Shown: piece by piece, positions 1 to 9,081 of the stretch
How positions within the stretch are numbered: the stretch's first letter is position 1
Layout: each line of letters opens with the position of its first letter
NCBI RefSeq assembly: GCF_016056305.1
Contig: NZ_JAECZC010000003.1
Span: forward strand, 2,317-66,316
DNA length: 64,000 nucleotides
DNA from: Amazonocrinis nigriterrae CENA67
GTDB lineage: Bacteria; Cyanobacteriota; Cyanobacteriia; Cyanobacteriales; Nostocaceae
Direction of reading: 5' to 3'
Program-made: the position numbers and the translations under genes
The notes under the pieces: model-generated
Database searches by the model: none
What the model saw: the letters and a program-made list of their open reading frames with translations, nothing else
Told to the model about the DNA's origin: nothing

Positions 1-141
1 CTTGATAGCGTTTGGAATGCTCTCCACGCTTTGCATTGCGACTTTTACATGCTAAAAGAAATACAAAAAGTAAAACAATTGCAGCAACCGTGGGACATCT
101 TAACCCATGACGAAGCAATGCGTATGCTAATGTTTGTCTGA
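1..141 (+). CDS. C-terminal end of an unknown protein (partial)
   Basis: Frame 1 is open from the window edge for 46 codons and ends with TGA at 139-141. The visible tail reads LDSVWNALHALHCDFY, then a basic stretch rich in K and Q, then WDILTHDEAMRMLMFV. I do not recognise the family. It is not clearly an antitoxin for the toxin-like gene that follows, because 175 bp of repeat-rich DNA separates them. It could be a genuine C-terminus or a chance open frame; the amino-acid composition looks protein-like. Confidence 0.4.
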   Translation, partial: LDSVWNALHALHCDFYMLKEIQKVKQLQQPWDILTHDEAMRMLMFV

Positions 142-159
142 ATCAGCAGTCAAAAAGGG

Positions 160-300
160 ACTAGGTACTGGGGACTGGTGACTGGTGACTGGGGACTGGG
201 GACTGGGAAAAAATATTAGTTCATCAAACAGCGGTTTTTTTCTAATACCCAATCCCCGATACCCAATACCCAATCCCCAATCCCTAATCCCCAGTCCCTA
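160..300. repeat. Short tandem repeats in inverted orientation
   Basis: A block of GGGGACTGG/GTGACTGG units (about 163-208) is followed after a spacer by CCCAATCCC/CCCAGTCCCTA units (about 246-300). The two blocks are partly complementary and could fold together. They resemble the short tandemly repeated repetitive (STRR) heptanucleotide arrays known from filamentous cyanobacteria. Confidence 0.7.
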
Positions 301-316
301 GTAAAGGTGACGCCTA

Positions 317-574
317 GTGAGTCTGGAAGTGCGCTATGCCAGGTCTTTTTTGGTAGACCTGAAGAGTTTAGAACCGGCTGCCTACCAGCGGGTATATGAT
401 TTTGTGTTTTTAGAGTTTGCCCAAAAGGGACTGCTGCATAGTCTACCAGAACTGCGGCAGCTTGATAGTGAGGGTATTTTTCATCGCTTTACTATAGATA
501 AATATCTTATTGGTATAGAAATTAGGGGTGAAATTGTCAAATTTTTGCGGGTCATCCCTATGCCAGATGTTTAA
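317..574 (+). CDS. RelE/ParE-like type II toxin (mRNA interferase fold)
   Basis: An 85-residue protein with the compact layout of RelE/ParE toxins: N-terminal VRYARSFLVDLKSLEP, a central helical part with basic residues, and the characteristic C-terminal strand block RFTIDKYLIGIEIRG followed by VKFLRVI. Family members usually cleave ribosome-bound mRNA or poison gyrase and are neutralised by a small antitoxin encoded next door. The start is GTG at 317, since TGA at 308 closes the frame; AAAGG lies about 11 nt upstream. No antitoxin is evident on either side: the upstream fragment ending at 141 is unrecognised and pgi follows. It may be an orphan toxin or a domesticated one. Family assignment is fairly sure, activity is not. 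Confidence 0.65.
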   Translation: MSLEVRYARSFLVDLKSLEPAAYQRVYDFVFLEFAQKGLLHSLPELRQLDSEGIFHRFTIDKYLIGIEIRGEIVKFLRVIPMPDV

Positions 575-5429: not shown

Positions 5430-5581
5430 GATGGTTATGACTTGAGTTATGAAATTCTCTGATGTGGTGATTTCAATCAATCTCAGAAAATATTGCCTGA
5501 AAAATTAACACAATGTTACTTGCACTTCTCAATTGGGAATCCTGAGATAAAAGACTATTTTTTCAGCTTTGTGTACTAGTT

Positions 5582-6103
5582 ATGATACAACCAAATTCTT
5601 TGGAACTTGCGAAACAGGGAGATACAGAGGCGATCGCGTTTTTGATGAATCGTCACTTACAATCTAAGGGTATCACTGCCACAGTCACTCTCAAAGATGC
5701 TTGCTTAGAAGTAATGCTGGAATCATTGCAAACGCCAAATCGGCAGGCTTTAGTTACATTTGTTCACAAAGGTATCACTGGCTTAGGTGCTGCATCCATT
5801 CAGAAAGTGAAAGTTTATTGGCAACAGACGGGTAAGGTTTTTCCCGCTTGGAGTGAAGAATTTAATGTAGGTACAGCAGAAAGTGAATTAGAAGTAATAG
5901 ATAATGAAGATGATTCTAACACTCCTCATTTTTTCACTGTTTCTATTACTTTAAGTGGTGATAGCACATCTGGATTAACAGCAGAAAATTTTGAAAGTAT
6001 TGCTGATAAAATGACAAAAGATATTTTTGCCTACTTTAGTGATATTTGTATTCAAAAAGTGAGTGTAACTAATGGTAGCTCTGTAATCACAAAAGAGCGT
6101 TAG
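5582..6103 (+). CDS. Conserved cyanobacterial protein, triad member 1 (N-terminal domain only)
   Basis: A 173-residue soluble protein. Residues 1-100 (start MIQPNSLELAKQGDTEAIAF, with ITATVTLKDACLEVMLES and a VKVYWQQTGKVFPAWS end) match the first 100 residues of the protein at 7442 closely. Residues 110-173 are unlike the other two copies and contain acidic, Ser/Thr-rich sequence. No membrane segment. It is preceded by GGGAATCCTGA and a CTAGTTATGA start context shared with the two following genes. Function unknown; I know of no named domain and do not assign one. Confidence 0.75.
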   Translation: MIQPNSLELAKQGDTEAIAFLMNRHLQSKGITATVTLKDACLEVMLESLQTPNRQALVTFVHKGITGLGAASIQKVKVYWQQTGKVFPAWSEEFNVGTAESELEVIDNEDDSNTPHFFTVSITLSGDSTSGLTAENFESIADKMTKDIFAYFSDICIQKVSVTNGSSVITKER

Positions 6104-6287
6104 TTTTTTATGTTGATGAGTCAATCTAATTACACTAGTTTTTACTTGGGATGTATAGTTACTATCAACTTATATAAATGTTGCCAAGATAAATTGAATG
6201 AAAATTTTTGATAATGTTGTTTTCAACTATAAACGGGGAATCCTGATGTTATCACAATATTTGATCAGGTTTTAGCATTTACTAGTT

Positions 6288-7232
6288 ATGACACAGCCCA
6301 AGATTTCAGAACTTGCAAAGCATAAATTACAAAAATTTCACTGGCCTGTATGGTTTCCTTATCCTAGTTCTTGGTTGAGAGCGCTGATTCTAGTTCCAAT
6401 AGTCTTCTTTGCAATACGTTTGATAGCCTTTAGCTTGACGGGAGTGCTTATATCATTTAGTAGAAATACTCCTAAATTATTAATATTGTCTACTTTATTT
6501 GGCTTATTAATACCAACAATTTTTTTAGCATTTATTTACCATATTTTTTGGTTTTTTTGGGGTAGTAAGAGTTATAACAATCGCTTACCTAAATGGATAC
6601 TTAGTTTAATTAGTTTATGGTCAGGTTTCTATGCTACGGTTGTGATTGGTTTATCTTTTCTCATAGTTTTAGTTATTTTTTCCGAATTAGCTTTTTCAAA
6701 TTGTAAATTATCCTATGAAATAGCAGAAGAATTAAGTGGCTATGCAGGATGTATAACTGGACGCGCTACAAGAGTAATTTTTAAAAGTATTGAGAATAAA
6801 ACTTTTGTCAATAAACCTTGGTTTATAATTTGGTTACTCACCGCAACTTATCTTTATCAAATTGAATACTTATTTAGTCAATGCTTAATGCCAAAGCTGA
6901 TATCCATACTCACAAAAAATAAGTTTAAGCGCCAGCCTAACAGTGTTGATAACACAGATTTAAATGTGGACAGATTACAAGGTGATATGGGTGTTATCCA
7001 GATGGAAAAGGAAAGAAAACAGCAATCAAATATGACTTCGTTACCCCAGTACTATAATCAAAAGCCTAAAAAACGAAAGAAGCAACTGCTGATATTGTTC
7101 TTAATTTCTTTAACTGCTCTAGGAATATACTTGTTTCCTAAATTATCAGAAGTTAAAGACAATATTCCTTTTCATCTAATTCCTACAAGTCAAACAAAAT
7201 TGCCATCCAAAACTGTAACATTGACACCTTGA
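6288..7232 (+). CDS. Membrane protein, triad member 2 (internally deleted and prematurely stopped copy)
   Basis: A 314-residue protein starting MTQPKISELAKHKLQKFHWP. Compared with the copy at 7442, the first ~11 residues are kept, about 110 residues of the soluble N-terminal domain are missing, and alignment resumes at WPVWFPYPSSWLRALIL. Four or so hydrophobic segments follow (about 30-50, 60-85, 100-130, 175-195), then the shared TDLNVDRLQGDMGV block and a final TM helix near 265-285. It stops after TVTLTP, but the following ~130 bp still resembles the 3' end of the 7442 gene. Probably a decaying duplicate, perhaps still expressed. Function unknown. Confidence 0.65.
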   Translation: MTQPKISELAKHKLQKFHWPVWFPYPSSWLRALILVPIVFFAIRLIAFSLTGVLISFSRNTPKLLILSTLFGLLIPTIFLAFIYHIFWFFWGSKSYNNRLPKWILSLISLWSGFYATVVIGLSFLIVLVIFSELAFSNCKLSYEIAEELSGYAGCITGRATRVIFKSIENKTFVNKPWFIIWLLTATYLYQIEYLFSQCLMPKLISILTKNKFKRQPNSVDNTDLNVDRLQGDMGVIQMEKERKQQSNMTSLPQYYNQKPKKRKKQLLILFLISLTALGIYLFPKLSEVKDNIPFHLIPTSQTKLPSKTVTLTP

Positions 7233-7365
7233 TTAGCAACTTCTTAATAACCTACTTTTACACCTAAGTCTGATAATTTTCTAGAGGCTGCTAATCAAGC
7301 GATTAGTGCAGCTAACCTAACCCAATCAGCAAAAAATCAAGATGATATGTCCTGAAAAATTTAGA
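7233..7365 (+). pseudogene. Relic 3' end of triad member 2
   Basis: Downstream of the TGA at 7230-7232 the sequence TAAGTCTGATAATTTTC, then GAGGCTGCTAATCAAGCGAT and CCCAATCAGCAAAAAATC, is nearly identical to codons for SDNFREAVNQAISAANLTQS in the gene at 7442. The intact copy codes a ~100-residue periplasm-like tail here; in this copy it is out of frame or stopped and breaks off at about 7350-7365. Confidence 0.75.
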
Positions 7366-7441
7366 AACTGTTGTTTTCATCTGTAACTGGGGAATCCTGA
7401 GTATAGAAAATTATTTCCTCAGGTTTTTGTATTTACTGGTT

Positions 7442-8947
7442 ATGACACAGCCTAATCTTTTGGAACTTGCAAAGCAGGGAGATGCACAAGCGATCGCCTC
7501 GACGATTAATTACCTTTTGCAAGACAAACACATCACTGCTAAAGCAGTTTTGAAAGACCTTTGCTTACATGTATTATTAGAATCTGCTCAAGTCCCTGAA
7601 CAACAATCATCAGTCAGATTTATTCGTAATGTGATGAAAAAATTGGCAGTTAAATCTATCAAGTCAGTTAAAATATATGCAAAAAAGACTGGACAACAAT
7701 CAGTAGCTTGGAGTGATTATTTAACTTTGATTGATGATGTTGAAAAACCACAAAATGACTTAGGCAATTTGGGAGTAAAATATCAGGATAATCAAAAAGC
7801 CGCTATATGGCCGGTATGGATACCTTACTTTAATTCATGGTGTAGAGCATTTATTTTAATTCCATTAATAGCTTCAATTGGGTTTATAACTTTTAGGTTG
7901 ACAGGTTTTTGGGGTCTTATTTTATCAGGTATTACTAATCAACTGGAAATATTTATTATAATTTTAATTTTAGGAATATTACTGCCAATGTTTTTGGTTG
8001 CTTATATTCATACTTTTTTTGTAAGTTTATGGAAAAAACAACCAATATCATCTATCTGGCCTCGATGGTTACCCAGTGCTAATAGTTTATGGGAAGGTTT
8101 TTATGCAGAAGTAGTGATGTTTTTATCTTTGTTAATAACTATTTTTATTATTTTACCATTTTTACCAATAAACAATTGTTACCATGAGCCATTATTTACC
8201 TCCTGTCTTAGATATAGTGAAATAGTTTTAAAACAATATATAGATAAATACTCTATTGATAAAATTGGATCATCGATTTGGATTGTGACTGCTGCATATC
8301 TTTATCAAATTGAATATTTATTTAGACATCGTTTCATACCAAAAGTAAAAATCATACTTACAAAATATCAGTCTAAGCGCCAGCCTGACAGTGTTGATAA
8401 CACAGATTTAGATTTGGACAGATTACTAGTTGATATGGGTGTAACCCAAATGCAAAAGGGTAAAAAACAGCAATTACAGATGACTTATTTACCACAGCAG
8501 CATAATCAAAAGCCTAAACAACTAAATAAGCGTCTACTGATATTGCTATTGATTCCCTTAGTGGCTTTAGGGATATACTCGTTTTCTAAACTATCACAAT
8601 TTCAAGAAACTATTACTTTGCCGATCGCCTCTAAAATTTCAACAGAATTACCATCAAAAACTATAGCAGTTACACCTTCAGCATTAACTTCCAAATCACC
8701 TAATTTTATATCTCAGTCTGATAATTTTCGAGAGGCTGTTAATCAAGCGATTAGTGCAGCGAACCTCACCCAATCAGCAAAAAATCCAGATGAATGGAAG
8801 ATAATAGTAAGTCAGTGGCAAGCAGCGATCGCGCTGATGAACAAAGTACCATCTTCTAGCCCCAATTATTCTATAGCCCAGCAAAAAATTACAGAGTATC
8901 AACGCAATCTTAGTTATGCTCAGAAAAATGCTACAGGTGGTAAATAA
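7442..8947 (+). CDS. Membrane protein, triad member 3 (full-length copy)
   Basis: About 501 residues from ATG 7442; the frame is open to a TTG at 7427, but MTQPNLLELAKQGD matches the start of both neighbours. Order: soluble N-terminal domain (1-100), linker, a membrane region beginning WPVWIPYFNSWCRAFIL with four or five hydrophobic segments, a basic cytoplasmic stretch (KKQQLQMTYLPQQHNQKPKQ), a single TM helix, then a tail with the pattern FREAVNQAISAANLTQSAKN and WKIIVSQWQAAIALMNKVP. That tail resembles short helical repeats seen in other cyanobacterial surface proteins. It looks like the ancestor of the two shorter copies upstream. Function unknown. Confidence 0.75.
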   Translation: MTQPNLLELAKQGDAQAIASTINYLLQDKHITAKAVLKDLCLHVLLESAQVPEQQSSVRFIRNVMKKLAVKSIKSVKIYAKKTGQQSVAWSDYLTLIDDVEKPQNDLGNLGVKYQDNQKAAIWPVWIPYFNSWCRAFILIPLIASIGFITFRLTGFWGLILSGITNQLEIFIIILILGILLPMFLVAYIHTFFVSLWKKQPISSIWPRWLPSANSLWEGFYAEVVMFLSLLITIFIILPFLPINNCYHEPLFTSCLRYSEIVLKQYIDKYSIDKIGSSIWIVTAAYLYQIEYLFRHRFIPKVKIILTKYQSKRQPDSVDNTDLDLDRLLVDMGVTQMQKGKKQQLQMTYLPQQHNQKPKQLNKRLLILLLIPLVALGIYSFSKLSQFQETITLPIASKISTELPSKTIAVTPSALTSKSPNFISQSDNFREAVNQAISAANLTQSAKNPDEWKIIVSQWQAAIALMNKVPSSSPNYSIAQQKITEYQRNLSYAQKNATGGK

Positions 8948-9081
8948 TGGCGATCGCTCTTCAATGCTAAGGTAAAAAAGCTTTCAGTGTGTACCTAATC
9001 TAACTGTAGTTTTGCTGTCTCAAATTAATTGTCCTTAGCTAACATACAAAAAGAAAAGCAATTTCGTACCTAAAGCCTACC

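Follow-up and report, generated by a model that had tools for sequence, protein, structure and literature searches.

The window analysed here is a stretch of 64,000 nucleotides from Amazonocrinis nigriterrae CENA67, in which a check of open reading frames located three related genes in tandem on the + strand (Table 1). Alignment of copies 1 and 3 is restricted to residues 1–94, with 50% identity. Copy 2, with its stops read through, aligns with residues 122–453 of copy 3 (49% identity, E 4.5e-86); its first codons are common to both other copies, and the similarity resumes at the membrane region. At the DNA level copies 2 and 3 share two direct repeats, 6828–7127 versus 8276–8575 (79% identity) and 7183–7345 versus 8631–8793 (83% identity), the latter match of 163 bases being far above chance. 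The tandem triad with shared modules that an earlier note had described is therefore confirmed by the reading frames, the protein alignments and the direct repeats, and a common ancestry of the modules is supported.

Table 1. Features of the three-gene locus; nucleotide positions are those of the window and aa denotes residues of the encoded protein.
Feature	Position	Strand	Description
Copy 1 5' leader	5485..5581	+	carries GGGAATCCTGAG element; direct repeat families D4/D5; conserved upstream of orthologues
Copy 1 (N1)	5582..6103	+	173 aa; intact soluble protein
Copy 1 domain 1	aa 1-95		alpha-alpha-beta-beta-alpha-beta-beta
Copy 1 conserved second domain	aa ~117-173		beta-alpha-beta-beta (predicted, model)
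Copy 2 5' leader	6199..6287	+	homologous to copy 3 leader; 80% over 6199-6322 vs 7353-7476; 72/100 identical
Copy 2	6288..7232	+	314 aa; membrane protein without N-domain, chimeric; ends at TGA 7230-7232
Copy 2 front segment	6288..6825	+	unfused-M / G007-type membrane lineage; 53/65 informative sites M-like
Recombination breakpoint interval	6826..6878	+	spans conserved YLYQIEYLF motif; max-chi2 34.3
Copy 2 back segment	6879..7345	+	copy-3 lineage, tail relic included from 7233; 16/17 informative sites F-like
Tail-domain relic	7233..7345	+	TAA TAA in frame at 7245-7250, last ~48 codons deleted; codon read-out
Copy 3 5' leader	7353..7441	+	repeat comparison, orthologue upstream regions
Copy 3 (F)	7442..8947	+	501 aa; fused N-domain, membrane region and tail
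Copy 3 parts (AlphaFold model)	aa 1-115; about 130-310; 366-384; 428-497		N-domain; membrane region; last TM; three-helix tail

A leader with a GGGAATCCTGA element precedes all three copies and most of the Nostocaceae orthologues. Since the element is common to the copies and orthologues and nearly absent elsewhere in the genome, common regulation of the three copies is plausible. A genome-wide regulon was considered and dropped, as the leader 12-mer occurs at only three exact sites in the genome, two of them at the present locus. A conserved leader hairpin (CCTGAG...CTCAGG) was also rejected; the pairing is good in the copies of the window, but the second arm is missing from most Nostoc copy-1 leaders, and conservation would appear to lie in the leader element only.

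From its N-terminus copy 3 is predicted to have an alpha/beta N-domain joined by a linker to about four membrane helices; a positively charged loop then leads to the last membrane helix, and the protein ends in a three-helix tail. The membrane-protein model is of middling confidence (pLDDT 68). The orthologue in the same genus is 78% identical, others are 53–65% identical, and dN/dS for copy 3 is 0.34 (here and throughout, dN/dS values are pairwise counting estimates). In this fused protein (F; unfused membrane-plus-tail relatives are termed M), the distribution of charges suggests a topology with the N-side in and the tail out. In a separate locus of the same genome (L004, C32) the tail domain stands behind a lipoprotein-like signal and is followed by an aspartyl-protease-like region, an arrangement that suggests an extracytoplasmic tail domain and agrees with the tail-out topology. 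A 19-base inverted repeat with one mismatch, well beyond chance expectation (0.03 matches in the window), has its arms at 8188–8206 inside copy 3 and at 8933–8951 at the end of the gene; it was not found in orthologues.

Structural comparisons returned general resemblances. The predicted tail (residues 421–501) superposes on MIT domains and TPR-like three-helix bundles such as those of Vps4 and NRBF2 (2v6y_A, Z 10.1, rmsd 1.6 over 71 residues), although a Z-score under about 13 may reflect the common arrangement of helical bundles, and designed bundles score the same. Moreover, the copy 3 tail is predicted to lie outside the membrane and has no sequence match, so that the resemblance is one of fold only. 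The predicted N-domain resembles alpha-lytic protease prodomain-like, KH-like and ring-building alpha-beta domains (4hlb, Z 8.3, 85 residues, rmsd 3.5, and others), but this is a common small fold with no sequence match, from which function is unreadable. Assignment of a function from the fold was dropped for these reasons, the N-domain matches representing a common fold and the tail matches generic three-helix bundles. The A3 match to a designed membrane binder (9ivk_A, E 0.00046) was set aside because it covers just a hydrophobic stretch. Elsewhere, N-domains stand before Pilin_GH, M48 peptidase, EcsC, DUF4429 and TM2 domains, which suggests a common docking or sensing domain of membrane proteins.

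Copy 1 had been described as a leftover N-domain with a new end, a description that the comparative data overturn. In a search of 100 genomes, comprising its own and 99 relatives, full-length matches (residues 1–173) with the same end were found in eight of the 99 others, from seven genera, with identities of 86, 78, 67, 65, 63, 62, 61 and 60%. About 40 more orthologues occur in named genomes, mainly of Nostoc, with Dendronalium, Atlanticothrix, Komarekiella, Desmonostoc and Anabaena also represented. The 173-residue family is present in Nostocaceae at 50–86% identity, at full length and in the same chromosomal slot. The supposed new end is a conserved second domain, terminating in SNGSSVITKER, that is absent from copy 3 (AlphaFold model of copy 1, pLDDT 78.7). 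With the same-genus orthologue as reference, dN/dS is 0.23 for the whole of copy 1 and 0.11 for domain 1, and in the N-domain tree, which rests on few columns, copy 1 falls outside the clade of fused-gene N-domains (93/87). Because of this conserved short form, the low dN/dS and the position outside the fused clade, copy 1 is an intact, stable family under purifying selection and the steady member of the slot. A pseudogene or decay product of copy 3 was ruled out by the conservation of the short form in many genomes and by the same dN/dS value. At one locus (L133:6404-7888, in G200) the same slot is rearranged, the copy-1 orthologue being broken and its second domain joined in frame to the membrane gene.

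Long matches to copy 3 in other genomes are mostly limited to residues ~115–500, the membrane region and tail, in open reading frames of ~360–420 aa. Copy 2 was matched at E 1e-15 or better in 61 of the 217 genomes of the family searched (its own included), and many of the alignments begin at residue 1; this residue pairs with residue 1 in G029, G052, G248, G215, G173, G178 and others. Starts within the unfused M family resemble MTQPNxxExxKQKLQKFxWPxWFPYPSSW, and that of copy 2 reads MTQPKISELAKHKLQKFHWPVWFPYPSSW. Codons 12–18 of copy 2 (KLQKFHW) agree with the M-family leaders and differ from the copy 3 N-domain. The earlier note held that copy 2 had skipped about 110 codons of copy 3; because codons 12–18 match the unfused family, this gap did not arise by deletion from copy 3. 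Of the M-family features, copy 2 has the leader start and the WPxWFPYPSSW motif that opens the membrane part; an intact tail is missing, and the back half resembles copy 3. The short start without an N-domain is the usual, stable form in a widespread family of unfused membrane-plus-tail genes.

The two halves of copy 2 have different affinities. In sliding windows, DNA identity between copies 2 and 3 rises at about position 6828, from 41–70% to 68–88%, a step that, like the shared leader, the earlier note had not mentioned. By the same measure the sequences nearest to copy 2 are those of G007, G029 and G052 up to ~6827, and copy 3 with its same-genus orthologue from 6828. In the front protein tree copy 2 is placed with the G029/G052/G007 group, apart from the copy 3 clade at 99/98, and in the back tree it joins copy 3 and the same-genus orthologue (G001) at 95/86. 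There are 82 informative sites, of which 53 are M-like and 12 F-like to the left of 6825, against 1 M-like and 16 F-like to the right of 6879; the max-chi2 of 34.3 was reached in 0 of 2000 permutations. These well-supported conflicting trees and the breakpoint analysis show copy 2 to be a recombinant of two membrane lineages, and we infer gene conversion as the process. Derivation from copy 3 by deletion was ruled out, as 53 of the 65 sites before 6825 fit the other lineage and the tree separates the two at 99/98. In the proposed course of events, recombination at the conserved YLYQIEYL motif would have exchanged the back half of a former M-type gene for copy-3-type sequence, and a later step would have removed the tail via stops and deletion. 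In its back half copy 2 branches just outside copy 3 and G001, which probably dates the recombination to before the split of these two species. G001 has no copy 2, its copy 1 and fused gene being ~120 bases apart, and with recombination before the split it would have lost this copy. Alternatively, copy 2 could possibly have been transferred from an unsampled relative.

The tail of copy 2 contains three in-frame stops (TGA at 7230–7232 and TAA TAA at 7245–7250), and the relic keeps the copy 3 frame from 7233 to about 7345. The homology ends there because copy 2 lacks the last ~48 codons, and the copy 3 leader begins at 7353. The relic is accordingly real and in frame, as the earlier note had it, but does not extend to ~7360. 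Beyond the stop the homology is disrupted but still readable, and relatives have intact tails, which identifies the C-terminus of copy 2 as that of a truncated gene. Values of dN/dS differ along copy 2, with 0.27 for the front (against G029), 0.59 for the back half of the reading frame and ~1.2 for the relic (only 36 codons). Such values agree with a long period of constraint in the past and a recent relaxation of the C-terminal end, the only part of copy 2 to have decayed. Decay, as originally proposed, applies to this tail but not to copies 1 and 2 as fragments of a copy-3-like gene.

Copy 2 may be at least partly non-functional. It could conceivably still be a functional variant in which the membrane part is under selection and the tail is dispensable, a reading that we consider rather unlikely. 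It would account for the open frame of 314 codons and the low front dN/dS of 0.27 against G029, and a fused gene in the same slot of G004 likewise ends before the tail. However, the front value spans the whole history of the sequence and not the time after truncation, the back half has relaxed to 0.59, the tail is present in nearly all long relatives of copy 2, and the same-genus genome G001 has no counterpart.

Across genomes the family occupies a slot in the order nfi - phb - mnmH - [family] - akr - dcm - lpxB - lpxA. In Nostoc, a copy-1 orthologue most commonly stands ahead of an unfused membrane-plus-tail gene, and the pair of soluble and membrane genes that the earlier note took for a product of splitting is thus a standing arrangement. 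Fused genes are found in 17 examined loci, and a copy-1 orthologue adjoins the fused gene in 15 of these, so the fused N-domain is no substitute for copy 1. This retention, with the absence of the copy 1 second domain from copy 3, weakens the suggestion that copies 1 and 2 together reconstitute a split copy 3. The second position of the slot normally holds the membrane-plus-tail gene. Among 43 named loci, selected through copy 1 and hence biased towards it, copy 1 is full length in 41, and the second gene is intact and unfused in 12, intact and fused in seven, fused and running off the contig in two, broken in eight, replaced by another N-domain protein in four and undetected in 10. The second gene is thus frequently lost, and the tail loss of copy 2 is ordinary for this slot. 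At one locus of another genus (L079:10494-12029, G046) the fused gene has a single stop inside the N-domain, a case of independent decay.

The origin of copy 3 is addressed by the sequences at its junction. Fused genes of the G007 type have an M-leader-like stretch between the N-domain and the membrane part (SSILELAKQGKYETLSQIWPVWFPYPSSW), which in the fused gene of G211 reads SSILEATKQKK / SSILEATKQKKSRTLSQIWP. Leader-bearing unfused genes make up much of the sister clade of copy 3's membrane clade in the front tree, and no fused gene was found in that sister clade. The N-domains of fused genes fall into one clade, while the front tree requires at least three changes of the fused state. Because the fused genes keep the leader-like stretch and this sister clade has no fused member, fusion rather than splitting probably made copy 3, and the fused form looks derived. 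The N-domain would have been joined in front of a complete unfused M gene in some lineages. An old fusion followed by losses is rather less likely. According to this reading the fused form was ancestral in the wider membrane clade of copy 3, and unfused genes, including the donor of the copy 2 front, lost the N-domain, perhaps by recombination between repeated ELAKQ leader sequences. It would agree with the grouping of fused-gene N-domains in one clade (93/87) that includes the distant genome G079, and with the position of the unfused genes of G029, G052, G215, G248, G243, G250 and G063 among fused genes in the front tree, where the placements of G079 and G063 are unsure owing to long branches. 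The resemblance of the M leader to the first N-domain codons could mark it as a remnant. Against this stands the sister clade, rich in leader-bearing unfused genes and without fused ones, so that the leader-plus-membrane form most simply predates fusion.

The model of the earlier note, in which two duplications of a copy-3-like ancestor were followed by loss of the membrane part from copy 1 and of the N-domain and tail from copy 2, in a gene that is splitting or dying, is very improbable. The leaders and first codons common to all three copies, the tail relic and the relaxed back half of copy 2 (0.59) count in its favour. However, the exact copy 1 form with its second domain is conserved across genera, the copy 1 N-domain lies outside the fused clade, the front of copy 2 is closer to genes of other genera than to copy 3, and the unfused form is widespread. 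The note's claim that one gene is dividing into a soluble and a membrane gene, or is dying, mostly fails for a stable copy 1 and a recombinant copy 2. Of the two observations it had named as telling against itself, short forms that are stable elsewhere were found for copy 1 and for the copy 2 start, whereas absence of the relic was not. In the most probable account, which includes a fusion origin of copy 3, all three genes belong to one modular family of cyanobacteria and stand in tandem in a single conserved slot. The tempting reading of short paralogues beside a long gene as decay or splitting is corrected here by comparative data, in which the short families prove stable and one gene is a mosaic.

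Although well resolved, the locus is an ordinary example of domain fusion, recombination and partial decay among tandem paralogues. As in gene-converted or domain-fused tandem paralogues generally, the paralogues are adjacent with common 5' leaders, a sharp mosaic breakpoint falls in a conserved motif and one copy is partly decayed; the locus is within this known range and differs in that the gene family has no name. No named family was identified in Pfam (best matches 11–16 bits against cut-offs of 25–33) or NCBIfam (best 12 bits against cut-offs of 180–208, and no match for copy 3), none of the three proteins matched a family of the PADLOC anti-phage HMMs at E 0.1, the PDB sequence profiles gave nothing usable for naming the family, and the literature searched contained nothing on this family. 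An unnamed, widespread modular family of cyanobacteria is thereby exposed, and a conserved slot with repeated fusion, recombination and loss gives a handle on its function.

Our working guess for that function is a membrane protein with a soluble partner. Tentatively, the M and F proteins would reside in the plasma or thylakoid membrane, their N-side facing the cytoplasm and their three-helix tail lying outside, copy 1 would be a cytoplasmic partner meeting them through the related alpha/beta domains, and all family genes would be expressed under the same kind of 5' leader. More speculatively, and unlikely on present evidence, the slot may be a two-gene module in which a constant soluble copy 1 is paired with an exchangeable membrane partner, kept variable by recombination among tandem copies; the partner would be unfused, N-domain-fused, N-domain plus pilin-like, decayed or absent. 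If true, such turnover of the partner would point to a role in recognition, conflict or envelope interaction. Two further arrangements were seen in the same slot. At L088:8840-9973 and L160:6687-8384 the second gene encodes an N-domain with a type IV pilin-like (Pilin_GH) part and no membrane protein. At L144:6536-8986 (G151) two unfused membrane-plus-tail paralogues from different deep branches stand in tandem.
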